From contig NZ_PGFE01000001.1 in assembly GCF_002797595.1 (NCBI RefSeq), positions 124,001 to 188,000 on the forward strand: a stretch of DNA of 64,000 nt, written 5' to 3'. The notes under the pieces are model-generated. The model was not told where the DNA came from, made no database searches, and saw only the letters and a program-made list of their open reading frames with translations. This stretch comes from Sediminihabitans luteus. GTDB lineage: Bacteria; Actinomycetota; Actinomycetes; Actinomycetales; Cellulomonadaceae. Positions within the stretch are counted from its first letter, which is position 1; each line of letters opens with the position of its first letter. The translations under genes and the position numbers were made by a program. Of this stretch, positions 4,852 to 37,053 are shown piece by piece.

Positions 4852-5219
4852 GGGTGGAGGTGCGGGGAATCGAACCCCGGTCCGGTGGCGCTTTTCCAGG
4901 ACTTCTCCGGGCGCAGTCCGTTACGCCTTTCTCGGCCCCAGCATTCTCACGGACACGATGCTGACAGGCTCAGTCGGCTGAAAGTCCCCGTGACGTCACC
5001 GACGAACGTCACGAGCAGTGGCTCTCTAGCTGACGCCAGGAACCGGGGCGAGAGCATCCCCGGGCTGACGGACTTCGAAGCCTCGCTCAGGCGGCGAGGG
5101 CGAAGTCGGTGCGCTTGTTATCGGCACCTATAGGTTTGCAGACGTCGTTTACGAGATAAGTCTGCATCCTCGGCCCGCTTCTCCTCGAAGCACGACCACC
5201 GTCGAAACCGATCACCCCC
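4852..5219 (-). ncRNA. ssrA: Transfer-messenger RNA (tmRNA)
   Basis: This RNA rescues stalled ribosomes and adds a degradation tag, working with SmpB (5887-6357). The 5' end GGGGGTGATCGGTTTCGAC and the 3' end with GGGGTTCGATTCCCC followed by GCACCTCCACC form the tRNA-like half. The acceptor stem GGGGGUG pairs with CACCUCC. The tag reading frame lies at 5087-5125 and encodes ADNKRTDFALAA followed by TGA, ending in the ALAA recognised by ClpXP-type proteases. The 3' CCA is not fully encoded (CCC after the discriminator A), so the last base must be added or trimmed. A terminator follows at 4811-4846. The ends are good to a few bases. Confidence 0.95.
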
Positions 5220-17397: not shown

Positions 17398-18762
17398 TCA
17401 GTCCGGGCACACGCCCGGCGCGGTGGTGGCGGACGGCGCAGGGCTGGGCGTCCCGGCCGACGGGTTTGGGTCGGTGCTCGTGCCGTCGCCGTCATCGCCC
17501 GTCTCACCGTCGCCCGTCCCGGCACCGGTGCCCGTCCCGCCGTCAGTCCCCGGCGCGGGCTCCGCACCGGGCGGCGGCTCGTCGGCGGCGATGCGCGCCC
17601 AGATCTCGTCCGCCTCGGCGGTCCACAGCACGCGGTCGTTGTCCCAGGGCGCGTCGACGACGGGCACGGCCGTGAACACGACGTTCTCGGGCGGGATGCT
17701 GCGCAGGGAGAGCGCGAGCCCGACGAGCGCGCGGGGCGAGCCGAGGTCGGGGCTCGTGCTGATGGACGCGAGGATCGACTCGACGACGCGGTAGAGCTGG
17801 GGTGTGCTCGTCAGGAGGTTCTTCGAGGTGACCTCGTGCACGGTCGCGTCGAGGAACGCCTGCTGGCGCTCGATGCGTTGCAGGTCGCTGCCGAGCTCGA
17901 GGCCGAACCCGGTGCCCTTGCGGGCGCGCAGGAAGTTGATCGCCTCGTACCCGTCGAGGCGCTGCTCGCCGGCGGGCAGGTCGAGGTCGACCTCGCGCCC
18001 GTGCACGGGCTCGGGCATGCACATGCGCACGCCACCGAGGGCGTCGACGATGGGCTCGACGCCGTTCATCTTGACCACGACGTGGTCGGTCGTGCGCACC
18101 CCGGTGAGCTGCTCGACGGTGCGTCGCGTGCAGGCGGCTGCTCCCGCGATGTCCTCCTCGGGCCCGCCACCGTAGGTGAAGGCCCGGTTGAACATGGTCG
18201 TCGAGCGTGCGGGGGTCACGGTGCCGTCGGTGCGCGTGCACGTCGGGATGTCGACGAGCGAGTCGCGCGGGATCGACACGATCTCGGCGCGCGTGCGGTC
18301 GGCCGCGACGTGCACGAGGAGCGTCGTGTCGGACCGCATGCCGTCCTCGACAGCACCGCCGGCGACCGCGATGTTCGCGGCGTCGCGCAGGTCGGTGCCC
18401 ATGACGAGGATGTTGAGCGGCTGGCCGGCGTACGGGTCGGCGGGGTCGGGCGGGGCGTCCCGGGTGGGCGGTGCCACGGGGAGCTGCGCGGGGCGGTCGG
18501 CGCCGAGCAGGGGGTCGACGTCGTCGACCGTGATCTGGGACTGCAGGTCGACGTACGCCGCGACGGCGGCGGTGGTGACGAACACGACCGCGGCGGTCGC
18601 CGTCAGCGCCGTCGCGAAGAGCACGGGGTGGCGGCGGCGGGGCGGGGCGTGCCGGGGGGCGTGCGACCGGCGCGGGGGTCGCCGCGGCGACCCGGTGGTG
18701 GACGCGACGGCGCGCGGGACGTCGTCGTGGGCGTCGTCACCGGTCGTCGTCGCTGCGGCCAC
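17398..18762 (-). CDS. LytR-CpsA-Psr (LCP) family wall-polymer transferase
   Basis: About 454 residues: a basic, His/Arg/Pro-rich cytoplasmic N-terminus, one membrane helix (VLFATALTATAAVVFVTTAAVAAYV), then an extracytoplasmic LCP domain with NILVMGTDLRD, SDTTLLVHVAADR, SIPRDSLVDIP, FTYGGGPE, VKMNGVEPIVDALGGV and INFLRARKGTGFGLELGSDLQRIERQQ (conserved arginines; listed as two motifs INFLRARKG and LQRIERQQ). A Gly/Thr/Asp-rich tail ends the protein. LCP enzymes attach teichoic-acid-like or other glycopolymers to peptidoglycan. It could anchor the glycan predicted from 28901-36948, but there is no direct link. The GTG lies six bases after TACGCT, favouring this start. Confidence 0.9.
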   Translation of the reverse strand: MAAATTTGDDAHDDVPRAVASTTGSPRRPPRRSHAPRHAPPRRRHPVLFATALTATAAVVFVTTAAVAAYVDLQSQITVDDVDPLLGADRPAQLPVAPPTRDAPPDPADPYAGQPLNILVMGTDLRDAANIAVAGGAVEDGMRSDTTLLVHVAADRTRAEIVSIPRDSLVDIPTCTRTDGTVTPARSTTMFNRAFTYGGGPEEDIAGAAACTRRTVEQLTGVRTTDHVVVKMNGVEPIVDALGGVRMCMPEPVHGREVDLDLPAGEQRLDGYEAINFLRARKGTGFGLELGSDLQRIERQQAFLDATVHEVTSKNLLTSTPQLYRVVESILASISTSPDLGSPRALVGLALSLRSIPPENVVFTAVPVVDAPWDNDRVLWTAEADEIWARIAADEPPPGAEPAPGTDGGTGTGAGTGDGETGDDGDGTSTDPNPSAGTPSPAPSATTAPGVCPD

Positions 18763-28765: not shown

Positions 28766-28869
28766 CGAGGACGCTCGAGCCTGACCCGGGCGCACGAGCC
28801 TGACGCGTGCAGCGCCGTCCGGTACCACCGTCGGGCGACCGTCGAGCACCGTTCACCACGGGTTCACCA

Positions 28870-28894
28870 CCCGGACGCGGGATCCTCCTACCGT
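28870..28894 (+). promoter_or_regulatory. Predicted promoter of the first GT2 gene (shared element)
   Basis: CCCGGACG, then 11 bases, then TACCGT, then six bases to ATG. The same CCCGGACG-N11-TACCGT occurs before the GT2 gene at 32198. Upstream, GTTCACCAC is repeated at 28851 and 28862. Confidence 0.5.
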
Positions 28895-28900
28895 CGAACC

Positions 28901-29872
28901 ATGAGCACGCGCGCCCGCCCACGCATCTCGGTCGTGGTCGTCGCCGAACCCGACGACACGCCCGACCCGGGCCTGGCCCGGACCCTCGCCTCGTTGTGCG
29001 TCCAGGTCGTCGACCGGGGCGAGCTCGAGGTCGTCGTCGTCGTCGTCGACGCTCCCGCTTCCGCCTCCGCTCCCGCGAGCACCGCCGCGGTGACCGCCGC
29101 GGCGTTCGCGACGGATCTCCCTCGCCTGCAGGTGCTCTCCGACGTCGCCGGCACGGGGCCCGCGAGCGCCCGGAACCTGGGACTCGCGGCGGCGTCCGGC
29201 CGCTTCGTGACCTTCGTCGACGCGGGGGACGTCCTCGCCCCGCAGCGCCTCGCGCACCTCGCGGGCGCCCTCGAGACGCTCCGCTGCGACGCCGTGCACG
29301 CGGGCGACTCACGGCTCGCGGGGCCGTCGGCGCACGACCGCTCGCCCGTGACCCCTCGCGGGGTCGTGCTCGACCCGCGGGCCGAGCTCGCGCGCGGCGT
29401 CGTCCACGACGTCCGGGGCGGCGTGTTCGACCGTGCGCTCGGGCACGACGGGCTGCTCGACCTGAGCGAGGGTCTGGGCACCGCCGCCGACCTCCCGTGG
29501 ACGTGGCGGCTCCAGCTGCGCAGCCACGGTGTCGCCGTCGTGGACGCGCCGGGCCTCGCGCAGCGCCGACCTTCCCGCCCGCCCGCACCGTCAACGGTCG
29601 TCGCGTCGCTGCACCGCACGGTGCAGGTCGTCCTCGCGGACCGCTCGCCGCAACCGTTCCTGCCCCACCTGTCCGCGGTCGTGCGCGCACGCTGCGACGC
29701 GCTGCTCGCCGCGCCGGCGCCCGACCGGGCCGACCGGCGCACGCTGCGGCGGGCCGTGCGCACGACCATCGCGACCCTCCCGACCACGGCGGCGTCGGTG
29801 CAGACCGCCGGACGCTCGCCCCGGCGCGTCACGACCGAGACGCTCGCGACGTCGTCGTGGGCTCCCGCGTGA
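28901..29872 (+). CDS. Glycosyltransferase family 2 protein
   Basis: A 323-residue probable glycosyltransferase. GT2 features are the RISVVVVAEPDD opening strand, GPASARNLGLAAASGRFVTFVDAGD (nucleotide-sugar site with the DxD-like DAGD near residue 108) and an alpha/beta fold to about residue 220. The C-terminal 100 residues are Arg-rich and match nothing I know. There is no membrane segment. The ATG lies six bases after TACCGT, pointing to a leaderless message. First gene of a glycan cluster, seven bases before the polysialyltransferase-like gene. Sugar donor unknown. Confidence 0.82.
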   Translation: MSTRARPRISVVVVAEPDDTPDPGLARTLASLCVQVVDRGELEVVVVVVDAPASASAPASTAAVTAAAFATDLPRLQVLSDVAGTGPASARNLGLAAASGRFVTFVDAGDVLAPQRLAHLAGALETLRCDAVHAGDSRLAGPSAHDRSPVTPRGVVLDPRAELARGVVHDVRGGVFDRALGHDGLLDLSEGLGTAADLPWTWRLQLRSHGVAVVDAPGLAQRRPSRPPAPSTVVASLHRTVQVVLADRSPQPFLPHLSAVVRARCDALLAAPAPDRADRRTLRRAVRTTIATLPTTAASVQTAGRSPRRVTTETLATSSWAPA

Positions 29873-29879
29873 CCGCCGC

Positions 29880-30884
29880 GTGAGCGGCGCGCGACCCGCG
29901 CACGCGCACGTCGAGTCGCCGCTGCAGCTCCTGTGCGCCGTCGAGGCACACGCCGCGGGACTCACGGGTACCGCGACCGTGGTGCACGCCCGGCGCGACG
30001 TGCCCGCGCTGCGGGCGGCCCGCGCGGAGCTCGCCGCGCTCGGGCTCCCGGCAGGGCTCGACCTCGACGGTCCGCCCGGCCCGGTCCGCCTCCCCCGCGC
30101 CGGGACGTGGGTCGTGGGCGACGCGTTCTCGGGGTCGTTCCAGTCACGGCTCGCCGCGGGCGGCGGGCCGGCGCGCCTCGTGCTCGTCGACGACGGCCTC
30201 GCGACCCTCGCGCTCGCGGACGTGCTGCTCGCCGCCGACCGGCCCGTCCAGCGCGTCGGGTCGTCGCACCACCGGCTCCGCCGGGCGCTCGGGCTGCGGA
30301 CCGCGCGCCGTCTGCGGGCGCTGGCTGCGGACGGCCGGCTGACCTTGTTCACGGCCATGCCTCTCGGTGAGGATGCGGCGCGTCTCGCGGACTCGGGGAT
30401 CACGGTCGTGCGGGACGATCTCGGCTGGTTGCGCTCGCGCCCGGCCGCGGCACCCGTGCCCGAGGCCACGGTCGTGCTCGGCTCGGGCCTGGTCGCCGAC
30501 GGCCTCGTCGACCCGGACGCCTACGTCGCGTGGGTCGGGCGCGTGGTGGCCGAGGGGCCCGTGCGCTACCTGCCGCACCGGCGGCACGACCGCGCGGTGA
30601 CGCGTCGGGTCGCGGCCCTCGGCGCGACGGTCGAGGCGCCCGGCGCCCCCGCCGAGATCCGCCTGCGCTCGCTCGGCGAAGGCCAGCGCGTGCTCATGCT
30701 GCCGTCGACCGCTCTCGTCCTGCTCGGCTCGACGCTCGCGGGCTCGGGCGCGGACGTGGTCGGCGTCCCCGTCCCCGCCGGCTGGTGGACGCGCGACGCC
30801 TCCCCGGCCCTGCGCGCCCACCTGTCGAGCGTGCTGGACCTCGCGGCCCGCCCCGGGACCGGTCGGGCCGGGGGCGCGCGATGA
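29880..30884 (+). CDS. Polysialyltransferase-like glycosyltransferase
   Basis: A 334-residue protein starting HAHVESPLQLLCAVEA, the opening typical of bacterial sialyl- and polysialyltransferases (GT52 and the alpha-2,8-polysialyltransferase group). An acidic VDDG near residue 103 fits their D/E-D/E-G motif, YLPHRRHD near 222 sits where the HP motif is expected (order Pro-His here), and LPSTALVLLGS near 278 supplies the serine/threonine motif. It would use a CMP-activated nonulosonic acid, which the gene at 34786-36948 can make. GTG start seven bases after the previous stop; no ribosome-binding site, so probably coupled. Family call moderately sure, product inferred. Confidence 0.7.
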   Translation: MSGARPAHAHVESPLQLLCAVEAHAAGLTGTATVVHARRDVPALRAARAELAALGLPAGLDLDGPPGPVRLPRAGTWVVGDAFSGSFQSRLAAGGGPARLVLVDDGLATLALADVLLAADRPVQRVGSSHHRLRRALGLRTARRLRALAADGRLTLFTAMPLGEDAARLADSGITVVRDDLGWLRSRPAAAPVPEATVVLGSGLVADGLVDPDAYVAWVGRVVAEGPVRYLPHRRHDRAVTRRVAALGATVEAPGAPAEIRLRSLGEGQRVLMLPSTALVLLGSTLAGSGADVVGVPVPAGWWTRDASPALRAHLSSVLDLAARPGTGRAGGAR

Positions 30885-32134
30885 CCCTCTCCGTCCTCGC
30901 GGTCGCGGACTCCGACTCGTACCTCAAGTGGGCCTGCGCGACGCTCGACGCGCTGCGCACCGCGCCCGAGACCGCAGGCGCGCACCTCACGGTCATGCTG
31001 CTGCGGACCCCGATCCAGCCGACCGTGGCGCAGGTCGCCGCGGCGACCGCGGCCACAGGGGTTGCGACCCCTGCGACCGTCGGCCTGCGCGGCCTGCGCC
31101 GGGCCCTGAACCGCACCCGGCCGGACGCCGTCCTCGTCGCGGCGACGGGCCCCGTGGCCGAGGTCGTCGCCCGGGTCGTGCGGGCGGCCCACCCGGGCGC
31201 GCTCCTCGTGAGCGGGCTACCTGGGATGGCGCTGCCCGCCCGGCCCGACGGCGTCGGGTACCGACGGTGGACGGACCTGCTCGTGGTCCACAGCCACGCC
31301 GAGCGTGACGCGTACGCGGCCGCGTTCGCGGCCCAGGGCCGGGCACCGGAGGTCGTGGTCTCGCGCCTACCGTTCCTCGCACCACGCCCGACGACGTCCC
31401 CGGAGGTGACCCCGGGGGCGGTCCCGGAGCCCGCGCCCGGGCCGGGCGTGCGGCACGTCGTCTTCGCCCCGCAGGCCAAGGTCCCGGCCACCCGCGCGCA
31501 GCGGGTCCGCGTGCTCGACGCGCTCGCGCGGCTCGCCCGCCCGGACCGCGACGTCGTCGTCAAGCTGCGGGCCCGTGGCGGCGAGCGGCAGACCCACGCC
31601 GAGCAGCACCCCTACGACGCGCTCTGGTCGGCGGAGCACGCGCGGCTGGGGCACCCGCGCGACGCGCTGCGCTTCGAGGACGGCCCCATGGCACGCTGGC
31701 TCGCGCCCGGGTCCGCTCTCGTGACGATCAGCTCGACCGCCGCGCTCGAAGCCATGGCGGTGGGGCTGCCGACCGCGGTCGTGGCCGACTTCGGCGTGGA
31801 CGACGCGATGCTCAACGCCGTGTTCCGCGACAGCGGCTGCGTGGTCCGGCTGGACGACCTCGCCGCGGCGCTGTCGCGCGGCGGCCCGGTCGCCGACCCG
31901 GCGTGGCTGCGCGCGAACTACCTGCACCCCGAGCGCGACGAGCTGCCCGGGGCTCTGCACGCGCGCACGCACGCGCCCCGCCCGACGCCCGCGCGCTTCG
32001 AGCCGTGGTCCCGCGCGCGGCACGTACGGACCGTGCTCCGGTTCGCCGTGCCGCCCGCGGCCCTGCGCCCCGCGGCCGCCGCCAGGCTGGCCGTCGGACG
32101 CCGGAGCGCGGGGGTTCGCCGAGCCGCGCGGTGA
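30881..32134 (+). CDS. Putative glycosyltransferase (DUF6716-type)
   Basis: A 417-residue protein beginning MTLSVLAVADSDSYLKWA; the DSxxKWA motif near residue 12 recurs in the gene at 33421 (YDSQLKWA). A C-terminal region has ISSTAALEAMAVGLPTAVV, resembling the S-S/T and donor-binding region of GT-B sialyltransferases and capsule transferases. I place both in the DUF6716 family of putative glycosyltransferases from memory. The middle (residues about 170-190) is a Pro-rich linker between two Rossmann-like halves. The ATG overlaps the polysialyltransferase-like stop (ATGA). Acceptor and donor unknown. Confidence 0.72.
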   Translation: MTLSVLAVADSDSYLKWACATLDALRTAPETAGAHLTVMLLRTPIQPTVAQVAAATAATGVATPATVGLRGLRRALNRTRPDAVLVAATGPVAEVVARVVRAAHPGALLVSGLPGMALPARPDGVGYRRWTDLLVVHSHAERDAYAAAFAAQGRAPEVVVSRLPFLAPRPTTSPEVTPGAVPEPAPGPGVRHVVFAPQAKVPATRAQRVRVLDALARLARPDRDVVVKLRARGGERQTHAEQHPYDALWSAEHARLGHPRDALRFEDGPMARWLAPGSALVTISSTAALEAMAVGLPTAVVADFGVDDAMLNAVFRDSGCVVRLDDLAAALSRGGPVADPAWLRANYLHPERDELPGALHARTHAPRPTPARFEPWSRARHVRTVLRFAVPPAALRPAAAARLAVGRRSAGVRRAAR

Positions 32135-32165
32135 CGTTCACCCCCCGTTCGCCCGGTGCACCCCG

Positions 32166-32190
32166 CCCGGACGATCGCCGTGGCTACCGT
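32166..32190 (+). promoter_or_regulatory. Predicted promoter of the second GT2 gene (shared element)
   Basis: CCCGGACG-N11-TACCGT, identical in sequence and spacing to the element at 28870-28894, followed by seven bases and ATG. Confidence 0.5.
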
Positions 32191-32197
32191 CGCGTCG

Positions 32198-33280
32198 ATG
32201 ACGCTCGCCGACGCCTCCGCGGGGCACGACCCCGCCGCCACCTCCGCCGCCCGCGAGCGGCGCGCCGATCCGCGCCTTCGCGGGGTGAGCGTGATCGCGG
32301 TGGTCCGGGACGAGGGACCGCACCTGCGGGCCGCGGTCCGCTCGGCGCTCGACCAGGACTACGCGGGCGGCCTCGAGGTCGTCGTGAGCGTGGGCCCCTC
32401 GCACGACGACACCCGGGAGATCGCCGACGAGCTCGCACGCGAGGACTCCCGCGTCGTCGTCCTCGACAATCCGACCGGGGCCCGGTCGACCGGGCTGAAC
32501 GCCGCGATCCGCGCGGGACGCACCGACCACGACGTCGTCGTGCGCATCGACGGCCACTCCGTGCTGCCGCGCGACTACGTGCGCCGCGTCGTCGACCGGC
32601 TCGAGTCCACCGGGGCCGTCAACGTCGGCGGCATGATGGTCCCCGTCGGGACGACGTCGGCGCAGCGCGCCGTGGCGTGCGCCATGAGCCACCCCGCCGG
32701 CATCGGCTCGGCCGCGTTCCACACGGGCGGACCCGCCGGCCCCGTCGACACGGTCTACCTCGGCGGGTTCCGGCGCGACGCGCTGCTCGCCGCCGAGGGC
32801 TACGACGAGTCGCTCGTGCGCGCCGAGGACTGGGAGCTCAACGCCCGGCTGCGCGCCCGCGGCGGGACGGTGTGGTTCGACCCCGGGCTGCACGTCGTCT
32901 ACTACCCGCGCGCGACGCTGCGATCCCTCGCGCGCCAGTTCTGGCGCACCGGGATGTGGCGTCGCGAGGTCCTGCGGCGTGACCCTCGCAGCGTGCGGCT
33001 GCGGTACCTGGCACCACCCGTGCTCGTCGCGGTGCTCGCGCTGTGCGTGCCCGTCGTCGTGCTCGGCCCGCTCCTGGTCGGTCCCTGGGCTGGCCTCGGC
33101 CTCGTCCCGCCCGCGGCGTACCTCGCCGCGGTCACGGCCGCGTCCGTGCACGCGGGCGCGCGTCAGCCCGCGCCCGTGCGCCTGCTCCTGCCCGCCGTGC
33201 TCGTGACCATGCACCTCGCGTGGGGTGCCGGGTTCTGGCGGGGCATCGACGACGCCGCGACCCGCGAGCACCGGACCTGA
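32198..33280 (+). CDS. Glycosyltransferase family 2, ExoA-like, with C-terminal membrane helices
   Basis: A 360-residue GT2 enzyme. The catalytic domain has VSVIAVVRDEGPHLRAAVRSALDQD, VVVSVGPSHDDTREI, RSTGLNAAIRAG, the metal-binding RIDGHSVL (DxD-like DGH), VYLGGFRRDALLAAEGYDE and RAEDWELNARLRARG (the ED of the general base). Two or three membrane segments follow residue 285. This layout matches succinoglycan ExoA-type transferases that act on lipid-linked glycans at the inner face of the membrane. A GTG at 32156 is in frame, but it lies upstream of the TACCGT box, so I chose the ATG at 32198. The gap after it (33281-33420) has only a short CCTGA repeat. Confidence 0.88.
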   Translation: MTLADASAGHDPAATSAARERRADPRLRGVSVIAVVRDEGPHLRAAVRSALDQDYAGGLEVVVSVGPSHDDTREIADELAREDSRVVVLDNPTGARSTGLNAAIRAGRTDHDVVVRIDGHSVLPRDYVRRVVDRLESTGAVNVGGMMVPVGTTSAQRAVACAMSHPAGIGSAAFHTGGPAGPVDTVYLGGFRRDALLAAEGYDESLVRAEDWELNARLRARGGTVWFDPGLHVVYYPRATLRSLARQFWRTGMWRREVLRRDPRSVRLRYLAPPVLVAVLALCVPVVVLGPLLVGPWAGLGLVPPAAYLAAVTAASVHAGARQPAPVRLLLPAVLVTMHLAWGAGFWRGIDDAATREHRT

Positions 33281-33420
33281 CCTGACCTGAGATTCGCGTC
33301 GCTGCGACGCACCCGCCACGGCTCGCGACGCCCGGCATCGCGCCGTCGTCGGCACGTCGTGGCGGCATCCCCACGGCCGCCGCGCACCGCGTCGGTCGCC
33401 GCCCGCACCCGGAGGAAACC

Positions 33421-34701
33421 GTGCCACCCACCGCCACCCTCGTCCTCGCCTACGACTCGCAGCTCAAGTGGGCGCTCGGCATCGGCGACGAGCTCGCCCG
33501 GCGGGGGTTCGCCTGCCGGTACGTCGTCCCGACCGACGTGCGCCACGCCGTCTCGGACGGCCAGGCCACCGACCACGGCGCGGGCGCTCTCGAGCGGATC
33601 ACGTGGGCCGAGACGCACGTCGCCGCGGACGGGTCCGACGTCGTCGTCCTCGCGGTGCAAGGACCGCTCGCGTCGCGGTTCCTCGCCGAGCGCGCCGACC
33701 GGCCGAGTGTCGACGGCAGGGTCCCGGTCACGATCACGGGCTGGGTGGGCGTCATCATCGAGAAGCACGTCGCCGGGTACCTCGAACGGTTCGGCGCCGA
33801 CGTGGTCGCGGTGAACACGCGCCACGACCTCGACCAGTTCCGCGAGGTCGCGCGCCGGCTCGAGCTGCCGACGCACAACCTCCTGCTGAGCGGGCTGCCG
33901 CTGCTGCCCGCGGCGCCCGAGCCGCCGCGCGGCGGGCCCGTGCGCACGGTCGTCTTCGCCGACCAGCCCACCGTGCCCCGGCGACGCGACGACCGCGCCT
34001 ACGTGTACGCACGGCTCGTCGAGCACGCGCGCCGCCACCCCGAGCGCGAGGTGCTCCTCAAGCCACGCCACCGACCCGACGAGGACACGTTCCACGTCAT
34101 GCGGCACCACCCCGCGGCGATCGTCGCCGACTGGGACCTGCCGGCGAACTTCCGCATCGACTACACGCCCGTCACCGAGCTGCTGCCGCGGACCGACCTC
34201 CTGCTCACGGTCTCGTCGACCGCGGCCATGGAGGGCGTCGCCGCGGGCGTGCGCACCGCGTTCGTGGGCGACCTCGGCGTGCACGAGCAGCACGGCAACC
34301 ACATCTTCGTCCCGTCCGGGCTCATCCGGACGTTCGACCAGGTCGACCGTGACGACCTCGGCTCCCCGGCACCCGACTGGCTCGCCGACTACTTCCTCGG
34401 CGACGACCGCCGGCCGGTCGAACGGATCGTCGACCGGGCGCTCGAGGTGCTCGCGCTCGACCCCGCACAGCGCGCCTCGACCGCGGCCCGCACGACCGCG
34501 TACTTCCGTGGCCGGGTCGAGGTCGCGGAGTACCGGGACAAGCAGGCGCAGCAGGCCGGGCACTCGACGCGCCCGCGCGCGCCCCGGCCGAGGGCCGTGC
34601 GGACCGTGCGGTGGCGCCCCGGCCTGCGCGGCCGTGCGCTGCTCGTCGCGACCGCGCTCCTGCCGCACCGGACCGTCGGCTGGCTGCGCACGCACCTGTG
34701 A
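33421..34701 (+). CDS. Putative glycosyltransferase (DUF6716-type), second copy
   Basis: A 426-residue protein related to 30881-32134: LVLAYDSQLKWALGIGDEL at the start, VVFADQPTVP in the middle, VLLKPRHRPDEDTF, and TVSSTAAMEGVAAGVRTAFVGDLG near residue 275. This copy also has WVGVIIEKHVAGYLERFGADVVAVNT. The C-terminus is basic with a weak amphipathic end that may touch the membrane. The GTG follows GGAGG at five bases. It converges with the NeuA/NeuB gene across a shared hairpin. Specificity unknown; probably adds or polymerises a sugar of the same glycan. Confidence 0.75.
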   Translation: MPPTATLVLAYDSQLKWALGIGDELARRGFACRYVVPTDVRHAVSDGQATDHGAGALERITWAETHVAADGSDVVVLAVQGPLASRFLAERADRPSVDGRVPVTITGWVGVIIEKHVAGYLERFGADVVAVNTRHDLDQFREVARRLELPTHNLLLSGLPLLPAAPEPPRGGPVRTVVFADQPTVPRRRDDRAYVYARLVEHARRHPEREVLLKPRHRPDEDTFHVMRHHPAAIVADWDLPANFRIDYTPVTELLPRTDLLLTVSSTAAMEGVAAGVRTAFVGDLGVHEQHGNHIFVPSGLIRTFDQVDRDDLGSPAPDWLADYFLGDDRRPVERIVDRALEVLALDPAQRASTAARTTAYFRGRVEVAEYRDKQAQQAGHSTRPRAPRPRAVRTVRWRPGLRGRALLVATALLPHRTVGWLRTHL

Positions 34702-34709
34702 AATGCATG

Positions 34710-34745
34710 ACGACGCCCGGCACGGTGGTCCGTGCCGGGCGTCGT
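34710..34745. terminator. Bidirectional terminator between convergent glycan genes
   Basis: ACGACGCCCGGCACGG and CCGTGCCGGGCGTCGT form a perfect 16-bp stem with a TGGT loop, nine bases after the stop of the plus-strand gene and 41 bases after the minus-strand stop. Confidence 0.85.
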
Positions 34746-34785
34746 CGTGCGTGCGGGTGCCGCGCGGACGCTCCCGCGTGGCCGG

Positions 34786-36948
34786 TCAGGCCTCGACGCG
34801 GCGCAGGCGAGCCATCGGTGCGAGCTCGCCCGGCATGACGCGCTTGACGCCGTCACCCATGGCCTGCTCGAGGATCCGGATGTCACGCACGAGGTGCTGC
34901 AGGCCGGTCGGCTCGAGGGACGACGCGTGGTCCGAGCCCCACATCGTGCGGTCGAGCGTGATGTGCCGCTCGACGGCGACCGCCCCGAGCGCGACGGCCG
35001 CGAGCGAGATCTGCAGCCCGCGCTCGTGCCCCGAGTACCCGACCGGGACGCCGTAGCGCTCCTGGAGCGTCGTGATCGTGCGGAGGTTGACCTCCTCGGG
35101 GGGCAGCGGGTAGGTCGACGTCGCGTGCAGGATCACGAGACCGTCGGTGCCGAGGATCTCGACGGCCGCGTCGATCTGCTCGAGCGTCGACATCCCCGTG
35201 GACAGGATCATCGGCTTGCCCGTCTCGGCGAGCGCCCGCAGGAGCTCGTGGTCGGTCACCGACGCCGACGCGATCTTGTGGGTGGGCACGCCCTGCTCCT
35301 CGAGGAACGCGACCGAGGGGACGTCCCACGGCGAGGCGAACCACTGGATCCCGCGGTCGGCGGCGTGCGCGGCGACCTTCTCGTACTCGCCCTGCTCGAA
35401 CTCGACCCGGTACTTGTACTCGAGGTAGGTCATCTCGCCCCAGGGCGTCTGGCGGATCTTGTCCCGCTGGTCCTTGGGGGTACTGATCTCGGGCGTGCGC
35501 TTCTGGAACTTGACGGCCTGGCAGCCGGCCTCGGCGGCGACGTCGATGAGCTTCTTGGCGATCTCGACGTCGCCGTTGTGGTTGATGCCGATCTCGCCGA
35601 TCACGTAGACGGGCTGGTCGGGGCCGACGAGGTTCTCGCCGATCGCGACGGGCTGGGCGGCGCGCGGGCTCGTGCTCATGGTGGTGGTCCTTCCGGGGTT
35701 CTGCTCGTGGGAGTCGTGCCGGGTGGTGACGTTCTGGTCGGTGGGCGCGGCCCTGCGCGCGGCCGCGACGAGGTCGCAGATCTCGCGCACGGCCCCGGTG
35801 CCGCCGGCGTGGTCGAGGACGACGCGCGCGGCGGCGCGGACCTCGGGGCGGGCGTCGGCGACCGCGACCGGCCACCCGACGACGTGCAGGGGGCCGAGGT
35901 CGTTGACGTCGTTGCCGACGTAGGCGACCCGGTCGGGGTCGAGCCGGTGAGCGGCGATCCAGTCGCGCAGCGCCGCGGCCTTGTCGTCGACCCCGTGCAG
36001 CACGTCGACGCCGAGCTTGGCCGCGCGGGCCGCGACCACGGGGTTGTGCTCGGTCGACAGGATCAGCACGGGCACGCCGGCGCGGCGCAGGGCGGCGACG
36101 CCGAGCCCGTCGCCGCGGTGCACGCGCACGCTCTCGGTGCCGTCCTGCGCGACGTAGGCGTGGTCGTCGGTGTGCACGCCGTCGAAGTCGGTCACGAGCG
36201 CGTCGACGTCGATCCGCTGCGCGGTCGCGCTCGCACGGCCCGACGGGACGGTCTCGGCGATCCGCCGGGCCTCGTCGAGGTCCTCGGGGTCGTCGATCTC
36301 GAGCGCGGTCGCCGGGTCGACGGGCTGCAGCCCGATGCTGCCGAAGAACCGGCGCCCGTTCTCGAGCAGCCCGGCGGTGCGCATGGCGTAGAACGCGCCG
36401 GTCTCGCGGTAGTGCGGGGCGCGGTCCTGACGGCGCTGGCGCTCGAGCGTCGAGTGCCCGACGGCGCGCACCTCGCCCTCGTCGTCGCGCCACTGGAAGT
36501 CGTGGGTGGGAGAGACCGCGAGGACGACGTCGTGCTCGCCCTCGGCGACGCGGCGGACCGCGGCGTCGAGGTCGGCCGGGTCGACGAAGGGCGACGTGCA
36601 CTGCACGAGGACCGTCACCGGCGGCAGCGGGTCCCCGCCCGCGGCGAGGTGGTCGAGCACGTGCACGAGCGCGGACTCCGAGCTCGCGGTGCTCCCGGCG
36701 ATCTCGTCCGGGCGCACGACGACCCGCGCGCCGTGCCGTCGGGCCTCGGCCGCGATGCCGTCGTGGTCGGTCGAGACGACGACCGCCCCGACCGAGGGCG
36801 CCGCGAGCGCCGTGCGCACCGCGCGGCCGACGAGGCTCGTGCCGCCGACGCGCGCGAGGTTCTTGAGCGGCACGCCCTGCGAGCCGCCGCGCGCGGGGAT
36901 CACGACGACCGCGGGCCCGGGGGGCGAGGTGAACGATGGGGCTGACAT
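34786..36948 (-). CDS. Fused CMP-nonulosonate synthetase, KdsC-like phosphatase and NeuB-like synthase
   Basis: One 720-codon frame with three enzymes. Residues 12-235: NeuA-type cytidylyltransferase (IPARGGSQGVPLKN, ILVQCTSPF-like VLVQCTSPF). Residues 248-400: HAD phosphatase of the KdsC/NANP kind (DFDGVHTDD, STEHNPVVAARAAKLG, GNDVNDL). Residues 424-720: NeuB-type synthase (GEIGINHNGD, VKFQKRTPE, ASPWDVPS, ILSTGMSTLEQID, ITLDRTMWGSDHASSLEP) without the usual C-terminal SAF domain. The phosphatase suggests that a 9-phosphate intermediate is made and then cleaved, as for Neu5Ac-9-P or Kdn-9-P. An internal ATG at 35679 with GGAAGGA could also give NeuB alone (297 residues). The ATG at 36948 lies six bases after TACGTT. 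Confidence 0.88.
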   Translation of the reverse strand: MSAPSFTSPPGPAVVVIPARGGSQGVPLKNLARVGGTSLVGRAVRTALAAPSVGAVVVSTDHDGIAAEARRHGARVVVRPDEIAGSTASSESALVHVLDHLAAGGDPLPPVTVLVQCTSPFVDPADLDAAVRRVAEGEHDVVLAVSPTHDFQWRDDEGEVRAVGHSTLERQRRQDRAPHYRETGAFYAMRTAGLLENGRRFFGSIGLQPVDPATALEIDDPEDLDEARRIAETVPSGRASATAQRIDVDALVTDFDGVHTDDHAYVAQDGTESVRVHRGDGLGVAALRRAGVPVLILSTEHNPVVAARAAKLGVDVLHGVDDKAAALRDWIAAHRLDPDRVAYVGNDVNDLGPLHVVGWPVAVADARPEVRAAARVVLDHAGGTGAVREICDLVAAARRAAPTDQNVTTRHDSHEQNPGRTTTMSTSPRAAQPVAIGENLVGPDQPVYVIGEIGINHNGDVEIAKKLIDVAAEAGCQAVKFQKRTPEISTPKDQRDKIRQTPWGEMTYLEYKYRVEFEQGEYEKVAAHAADRGIQWFASPWDVPSVAFLEEQGVPTHKIASASVTDHELLRALAETGKPMILSTGMSTLEQIDAAVEILGTDGLVILHATSTYPLPPEEVNLRTITTLQERYGVPVGYSGHERGLQISLAAVALGAVAVERHITLDRTMWGSDHASSLEPTGLQHLVRDIRILEQAMGDGVKRVMPGELAPMARLRRVEA
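35677..35694 (-). promoter_or_regulatory. Internal ribosome-binding site and start for the NeuB part
   Basis: GGAAGGA (35694-35688, minus strand) stands eight bases before an in-frame ATG at 35679 that begins exactly at the NeuB domain boundary. This looks like a former separate gene start retained inside the fused frame. Confidence 0.55.
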
Positions 36949-36954
36949 GCCGCG

Positions 36955-36979
36955 AACGTAACGACGCCAGGTGGACGGG
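36955..36979 (-). promoter_or_regulatory. Predicted promoter of the NeuA/NeuB gene
   Basis: On the minus strand CACCGCCCG, then 15 bases, then TACGTT, then six bases to ATG. CACCnCCCG-N15-TAC also precedes the GT2 gene at 28901. Confidence 0.45.
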
Positions 36980-37053
36980 CGGTGACGCCGGGGTGCTGCG
37001 TCGCCGAACAGTCGCGCTGCGAGTTGAACGGTCGCTGAACGCGCGCCCGGGGC

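Follow-up and report, generated by a model that had tools for sequence, protein, structure and literature searches.

What is made by the group of genes at positions 28901-36948 of a 64,000-nucleotide stretch of the Sediminihabitans luteus genome (assembly GCF_002797595.1, contig NZ_PGFE01000001.1, positions 124,001 to 188,000, below called the window), and when would it be made? Five transferase-like genes, A to E, lie on the + strand and face a single nonulosonate gene, F, on the - strand. A preliminary description took this for a nonulosonic-acid surface-glycan locus in which five glycosyltransferase-like genes converge on the nonulosonate gene. The coordinates and strands hold, B, C and D recur near F elsewhere, and the assignment is supported in a narrower form, as Kdn-like (Kdn, 3-deoxy-D-glycero-D-galacto-non-2-ulosonic acid) rather than poly-N-acetylneuraminate, and of the teichulosonic-acid kind. 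We propose, with a probability of about 0.77, that this is a Kdn teichulosonic-acid gene set induced by phosphate starvation, giving an acidic, phosphate-free wall polymer that would replace phosphate-rich polymers.

Gene F (34786..36948, - strand) is one open reading frame (ORF) of 720 aa and a proposed CMP-Kdn factory. It encodes a cytidylyltransferase domain of NeuA-like, CTP_transf_3 type (36253..36909, -; PF02348 3.4e-21, residues 14-232), a KdsC-type or Kdn-9-phosphate phosphatase-like HAD domain (35758..36198, -; about residues 251-397) and a NeuB domain without the C-terminal SAF part (34813..35610, -; PF03102 1.1e-81). The domains for synthesis and CMP activation had been recognised in the preliminary description, and the fused phosphatase had been left unmentioned. 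A phosphatase between cytidylyltransferase and synthase is a sign of the 9-phosphate route, and since F carries one, the epimerase that had been listed as missing is not needed. In NCBIfam the phosphatase domain matches KdsC (4.3e-32, 111 bits) and Kdn-9-phosphate phosphatase (NF058599, 1.9e-26, 93.1 of 180 bits), and the nearest Protein Data Bank chain is 3mmz (6.1e-51). Residues E56, R64 and K67 of the Bacteroides Kdn-9-phosphate phosphatase 3e81, which we take to be the positions that set Kdn specificity in that enzyme, are also E, R and K in F (alignments matched by eye), whereas KdsC 3n07 has R, R and A at the equivalent positions.

The activated sugar could instead be N-acetylneuraminic acid (Neu5Ac) or some other nonulosonate, with the NeuB domain taking N-acetylmannosamine (ManNAc) or ManNAc-6-phosphate, and this we consider unlikely. 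The N-acetylneuraminate synthase model TIGR03569 is the best NCBIfam match of the NeuB domain (1.2e-80), and animals also use a 9-phosphate route for Neu5Ac. However the match is under the cut-off (271.1 of 399.65 bits) and is aligned only up to position 273 of 329, the unmatched end being presumably the SAF part. The genome also has a match to NanE, a further point for Neu5Ac, but it is weak (1.1e-5) and under the cut-off (25.6 bits, cut-off 27), and the only UDP-GlcNAc 2-epimerase gene is of WecB type, reaching 66.8 of 235.9 bits with the NeuC model. Moreover Kdn is the nonulosonate reported from the wall of Promicromonospora, in P. citrea as a 7,9-pyruvylated Kdn teichulosonic acid (PMC6801904; published work is cited here and below from excerpts of the papers), and this genus is in the same GTDB-type family as S. 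luteus. For the product of F we favour Kdn from mannose-6-phosphate, because the phosphatase keeps E, R and K, the sole epimerase is WecB-type and NanE stays under its cut-off.

With F as query, GTDB genomes gave at least 591 stretches, at least 535 of them relatives, of which the best 80 were kept (below, the 80 loci), all from actinobacterial genera. The F frame is open in 74 of them; five Promicromonospora loci have a stop codon between phosphatase and NeuB, and in Thermobifida fusca the frame stops after 406 aa. At this junction in the window there is a ribosome-site-like GGAAGGA with an in-frame ATG (35677..35694, -). Among the 25 of 81 junctions displayed, such a start codon and ribosome-site-like stretch are present in the window and in 19/19 of L001-L019, and in 0/4 Streptosporangiales loci. 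As they are kept, NeuB may also be made alone from the internal start, giving a dual product. For Bacteroides thetaiotaomicron we take the CMP-Kdn pathway to be BT1713-BT1715, with synthase, 9-phosphatase (structure 3e81) and CMP-synthetase as separate proteins. The enzyme set is the same, with E56, R64 and K67 kept in F, but in the window it is one ORF; the comparison covered the phosphatase (3e81). The one-piece sugar-activating enzyme looks new.

Neighbours of F in the 80 loci were sought over at least 200 residues for B, C and D and with a looser cut of 140 for A. Gene counts are by tblastn, because neighbourhood clustering (18 sources, stricter gene filter), which was set aside, missed real genes. 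The tally was 67 loci for B, 72 for C, 17 for D and 67 for A, and given the recurrence of B, C and D near F in other actinobacteria the grouping of A to F is judged not to be due to chance. In S. luteus itself (3.42 Mb) the one NeuB match and both DUF6716 matches are within this locus.

Phosphate control is indicated by sequences upstream of the genes. In the canonical Pho box two or more copies of GTTCACCC stand as direct repeats, their CA pairs separated by 9 bp, which makes an 11-nt period (PMC7244524). The window has GTTCACCACGGGTTCA at 28851..28866 (+), 34 nt before the start of A, and GTTCAGCGACCGTTCA at 37025..37040 (-), 76 nt before that of F, both exact GTTCA-N6-GTTCA, and before D a PHO-like box, GTTCACCCCCCGTTCG, with one mismatch (32136..32151, +). 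Allowing one mismatch there are five sites in the window, two of them outside the locus. The exact pattern is the actinobacterial PHO box; the 3.42-Mb genome has five copies of it and none of the reversed pattern. The five sites are before A, before F, about 100 nt upstream of a pstS-like gene (PF12849 1.9e-41), before a GT29 gene discussed below, and by cinA/clgR. The pstS-like gene adjoins and follows phoR-phoP-like kinase and response-regulator genes (named by eye). The site by cinA/clgR (L088, genes likewise named by eye) is taken as chance.

The box before F is recurrent. Our set for the family has 150 genomes, 48 of them with a strong F match (E below 1e-100, counted by hand), and 40 of the 48 were tested, leaving out seven split-gene genomes and S. 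luteus; the 40 genomes and the 80 loci have some records in common. A box with at most one mismatch is upstream of F in 14/40, always oriented to F; the other 106 kb, gene body and downstream region, has no such box. As controls, 59 permutations of the core gave a mean of 0.53 genomes and at most 5, and spacers of 4, 5, 7 and 8 gave 1-2 genomes. In the 80 loci there are 4 exact boxes upstream of F and 1 elsewhere. With one mismatch allowed the counts are 9 upstream of F and 69 elsewhere in 1.66 Mb, a weaker signal than in the family test; four other cores gave 0-2 upstream of F. G[GT]TCA repeats gave 11 matches, of which 7 lie upstream of F at no more than 220 nt, including one with the opposite orientation.

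There are also -10-like sites: TACCGT at 28889..28894 (+), 6 nt before the ATG of A, TACCGT at 32185..32190 (+), 7 nt before the alternative start ATG 32198 of D, and TACGTT at 36955..36960 (-), 6 nt before the ATG of F. Thus TAnnnT sits 6-7 nt before the starts of A and F and the second start of D, and its position suggests that all three are leaderless. In the family, 23/40 genomes have TAnnnT 5-8 nt ahead of some start codon near F, against 0/800 random places, drawn inside F and its flank. Together the boxes, as predicted binding sites, point to regulation of the locus by phosphate starvation. It is highly improbable, in our view, that the product is a capsule or a secreted exopolysaccharide with no relation to phosphate supply and that the boxes are there by chance. 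No anchoring gene lies within the locus, as would suit a capsule, and one of the five genome-wide boxes, that by cinA/clgR, is itself chance-like. However two of the five exact boxes in 3.42 Mb fall here, the box recurs before F in family genomes, and PhoP dependence is published for the Streptomyces locus considered next.

With regard to known systems, Ostash in 2014 reportedly described the teichulosonic-acid locus of S. coelicolor, SCO4873-SCO4882, as relayed by papers that cite the work. SCO4873-81 has been reported as PhoP-dependent, with neuAB and as a putative teichuronic acid locus (PMC2267785); elsewhere the set SCO4873-4882 is assigned to teichulosonic acid and counted among the targets of PhoP (PMC13011467). 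In Planobispora rosea the counterparts of SCO4877-4880 and SCO4882 are given as Pho-activated teichuronic-acid genes (PMC8269224), so that teichuronic acid is the product named in both PMC2267785 and PMC8269224. The window resembles SCO4873-4882 in its nonulosonate synthase and activation genes, GT2, hypothetical proteins and Pho regulation. Having nonulosonate synthase, phosphatase and CMP-activation domains plus transferases, and having PHO boxes (the regulation being represented by boxes only), it is placed with loci of that kind. It differs in that the published table lists the synthase separately, whereas in the window synthase, phosphatase and cytidylyltransferase are fused in one ORF, and also in its absence of the POLYST gene discussed below, degenerate A, doubled DUF6716 and unlinked GT29 gene with a PHO box. 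The order of the SCO locus tags fits GT2, POLYST, DUF6716 and B of the Streptosporangiales loci, a mapping by order alone, and on this mapping the POLYST-type gene next to GT2 would be the equivalent of SCO4877, which is not known to be a defining gene.

Which protein would transfer the nonulosonate? The best candidate within the locus is B (29880..30884, +), a GT-B protein of an undescribed family. The preliminary description called it polysialyltransferase-like and suggested profile searches against GT52 and the polysialyltransferases. The likeness stands for fold and motifs and fails for family membership: B has no Pfam match at E<=1 and no NCBIfam match at E<=0.1, PF07388 matches 0/43 members of its family at E<=0.1, and a profile of the family has no match up to E 10 among solved structures. 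The AlphaFold 2 (AF2) model (pLDDT 92.5) has a GT-B fold. In VIA-align, polysialyltransferase 5wc6 is first (Z 15.2, rmsd 5.1, 297 aligned, 9% identity) and 5wcn has 14.9. The margin is narrow, about 1, since a plant UDP-glycosyltransferase reaches 13.9 and a bacterial sialyltransferase 13.8. Foldseek puts UDP-glucosyltransferases first, then the Neisseria sialyltransferase 2yk7 (third, TM 0.43), which we take to be a GT52 enzyme, epimerases, 5wc6 and 4v2u, all with E <=1e-3 and TM 0.40-0.47.

In the Mannheimia haemolytica polysialyltransferase (GT38, 5wc6) E153 of a D/E-D/E-G motif, H291 and S339/T340 are catalytic and Q41/Q44 assist (PMC5517516). In the 43 B sequences Q16, D104-D105-G106, H233 and S276-T277 are invariant, and matched by motif and spacing the intervals are 128 and 43 in B and 138 and 48 in the polysialyltransferase. 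B thus resembles that enzyme in its GT-B fold, its D/E-D/E-G, His and Ser-Thr motifs and their similar spacing, but differs in having only 9% identity, no PF07388 match and a Z margin of about 1; its His motif also reads PHR as against HP. Profile comparison of B gave a probability of 1% with DUF6716 and 3% with the POLYST-like profile (hhalign), though in the latter His and Ser-Thr align in register. By fold and motifs B is a candidate CMP-nonulosonate transferase of an unlisted family, and this undescribed family looks new.

A second candidate is outside the window, on contig C2 of the same genome (L089:9976-12366), a GT29 plus GT1 fusion gene with a 797-aa frame and an exact PHO box upstream. 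GT29 is the family of all animal sialyltransferases. Besides its GT1 domain, the protein matches PF00777 (7e-13, 49 bits, cut-off 23) over profile positions 58-104 of 272 only, and by phmmer the alpha-2,3-sialyltransferase 2wml (6.6e-5) with only motif L covered. Six aligned GT29 sequences, this one included, have in common VVGNGPG..D.HD.V.RFNN, PTSGAQ..W, HY.D and H....E, which, going by their letters, may be sialylmotifs L, S, III and VS. In four homologues from the family (L097-L100) a box, exact or with one mismatch, occupies the same position; in all five genes it precedes motif L by 571-591 nt. The homologue L092, from another family, has no box; of the remaining 13 of 19 GT29 loci, eight have a box with at most one mismatch anywhere in about 3.1 kb and five have none.

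The distribution of GT29 links it to F and B. PF00777 is found in 16/150 family genomes (14 over the cut-off), all 16 among the 48 with strong F, and in 6/119 genomes of the order, all with B (Fisher tests, kinship ignored: 1.6e-9 for GT29 with F, 8.5e-5 for GT29 with B at order level). It is 12-21 kb from F in six of the 16 family genomes (G008, G027, G193, G212, G231, G258) and far from F or on another contig in the other ten, S. luteus included; in G069, which belongs to another family, about 2 kb separate it from the neuA-like match. Within the 80 loci, which extend up to 10 kb each side, tblastn found no GT29 match. Of the 23 bacterial GT29 sequences in a 2018 survey, 19 came from alphaproteobacteria, and function could not be predicted from the trees of that survey (PMC5811610). 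In a literature set with little coverage of subscription journals we found no title connecting actinobacterial GT29 with wall polymers, and the linked animal-type sialyltransferase looks new. As a separate observation, a GT8 protein with a CST-I match (PF06002, 2e-9) is encoded in a relative at L153:12652-14571, in the same stretch as a GT29 gene, and N-terminal parts similar to it occur in L001, L007 and L019.

The other transferases are of known families. The preliminary description counted two GT2 genes, and A (28901..29872, +; 323 aa, PF00535 1.1e-11) and D (32156..33280, + or starting at 32198; PF00535 2.1e-17) do match. D has C-terminal hydrophobic segments (by eye) and relatives of 53-68% identity in the 17 loci. 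A however is a divergent GT2 in which three features, each present in 14/14 aligned relatives, are missing: [DN]D[GA]S, residue three of DxDD and the glutamate of AED. We take these motifs to be catalytic, and because such residues are gone A is probably inactive. A POLYST-like gene is present in 67/80 loci (two that were tested match PF07388, 2.2e-16 and 2.9e-24; against solved structures the profile gave nothing better than 0.25), and the 13 loci without it also lack A, while keeping F and mostly also B, C and D. No POLYST match was found in the window or in the S. luteus genome, though the window keeps A.

One could conclude that the locus is decaying, with A and POLYST lost and the remaining genes making little or no polymer. 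The missing catalytic residues and missing POLYST favour this, as do three other genomes of the genus (G116, G156 and G171, the last 87% complete) that have no match to F or GT29, and from which the system is judged to be patchy within the genus. Decay is nevertheless decidedly unlikely, as the frames of F, B, C and D are uninterrupted and show good conservation, the PHO boxes match without a mismatch, the 13 relatives without A and POLYST keep the other genes as just described, and a second DUF6716 gene is present.

The two DUF6716 genes, C (30881..32134, +; 417 aa, PF20471 6.1e-119, overlapping the end of B) and E (33421..34701, +; 426 aa, PF20471 7e-80), were correctly assigned in the preliminary description, with 397 and 269 bits against a cut-off of 27. 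Both are putative glycosyltransferases. The 72 loci that have any DUF6716 have one each, and the window two. A search of the profile against solved structures gave nothing better than 0.068, and the AF2 model of C (pLDDT 89.4) has a GT-B fold. DUF6716 is also present in the E. coli control genome, and the family is not confined to actinobacteria.

Export and anchoring appear to be encoded elsewhere. In the relative G008 the locus is surrounded by genes for UDP-galactopyranose mutase, polysaccharide pyruvyltransferase (PS_pyruv_trans) and an ABC ATPase and permease (L152:17281-19099; permease PF01061 9.8e-5, under the cut-off). The PS_pyruv_trans genes would fit pyruvylated Kdn. The Kdn wall polymer of a related genus is indeed the likeness to P. 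citrea; the differences are that no pyruvyltransferase was found by Pfam among A-F and that the P. citrea polymer is known as a structure. The G008 permease has close homologues in 8/80 loci and a 57% identical one in S. luteus, unlinked to the locus. The homologues there are C4:187048 and C3:45921, the latter adjoining the wecB-type gene, so that the exporter listed as missing has a candidate in the same genome. The LCP gene at 17398, which had been put forward as the anchor, is a real LCP (PF03816 6.9e-37). Its partnership with the locus is not supported: of the 80 loci, tblastn with its domain (E<=1e-8) hit L065 alone, with a 25% match. A tmRNA gene is at window 4853-5219.

Several of our results weigh against the proposal of a Kdn teichulosonic acid under phosphate control. 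With at most one mismatch, 26/40 family genomes and 71/80 loci have no box before F, and in the 80 loci spacer 5 is also enriched (5 upstream of F, 21 elsewhere). Neither phosphatase model reaches its curated cut-off, KdsC outscores the Kdn model (111 against 93 bits), and there is the weak NanE match. The DUF6716 model has its closest structural matches among non-hydrolysing UDP-GlcNAc 2-epimerases (Z 23) and UDP-sugar GT-B enzymes, and C and E may therefore use UDP sugars; the preliminary description had named transferases using UDP or GDP sugars as evidence against itself, and the DUF6716 result goes part of the way towards that. Because A looks inactive and POLYST is absent, the polymer may have changed, or its synthesis may have ceased. 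Finally, the link to SCO4873-4882 is drawn from published correspondence and gene order.

A mechanism consistent with a phosphate-controlled Kdn polymer can be outlined. PhoP would bind the 11-bp direct repeats seen before A-B-C and F, and perhaps those before D. The NeuB domain of F would condense mannose-6-phosphate and phosphoenolpyruvate to Kdn-9-phosphate, the HAD domain would strip the phosphate and the cytidylyltransferase domain would yield CMP-Kdn. B, and perhaps also the GT29 protein, would transfer Kdn from CMP-Kdn to a lipid-linked chain. Neutral sugars would be added by D, C and E, of which C and E would probably draw on UDP sugars. The chain would leave the cell through a TagG-like ABC exporter with its genes outside the locus, and an LCP enzyme would attach it.

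The general system is already known, and what look new are the one-ORF activating enzyme, the B family and the linked GT29. We tentatively suggest, at slightly less than even odds, that in actinobacterial wall polymers GT29 is a phosphate-starvation Kdn transferase and that B founds a further, unlisted CMP-nonulosonate transferase family, whose donor comes from one polypeptide covering the whole path from mannose-6-phosphate to CMP-Kdn. Donor and function thereby become testable for the conserved B family, which has no Pfam or NCBIfam match, and predicted function and donor become testable likewise for bacterial GT29 proteins. If the proposal is true, the one-ORF CMP-Kdn enzyme would be a handy reagent, and phosphate control would provide a simple condition under which to seek the polymer.

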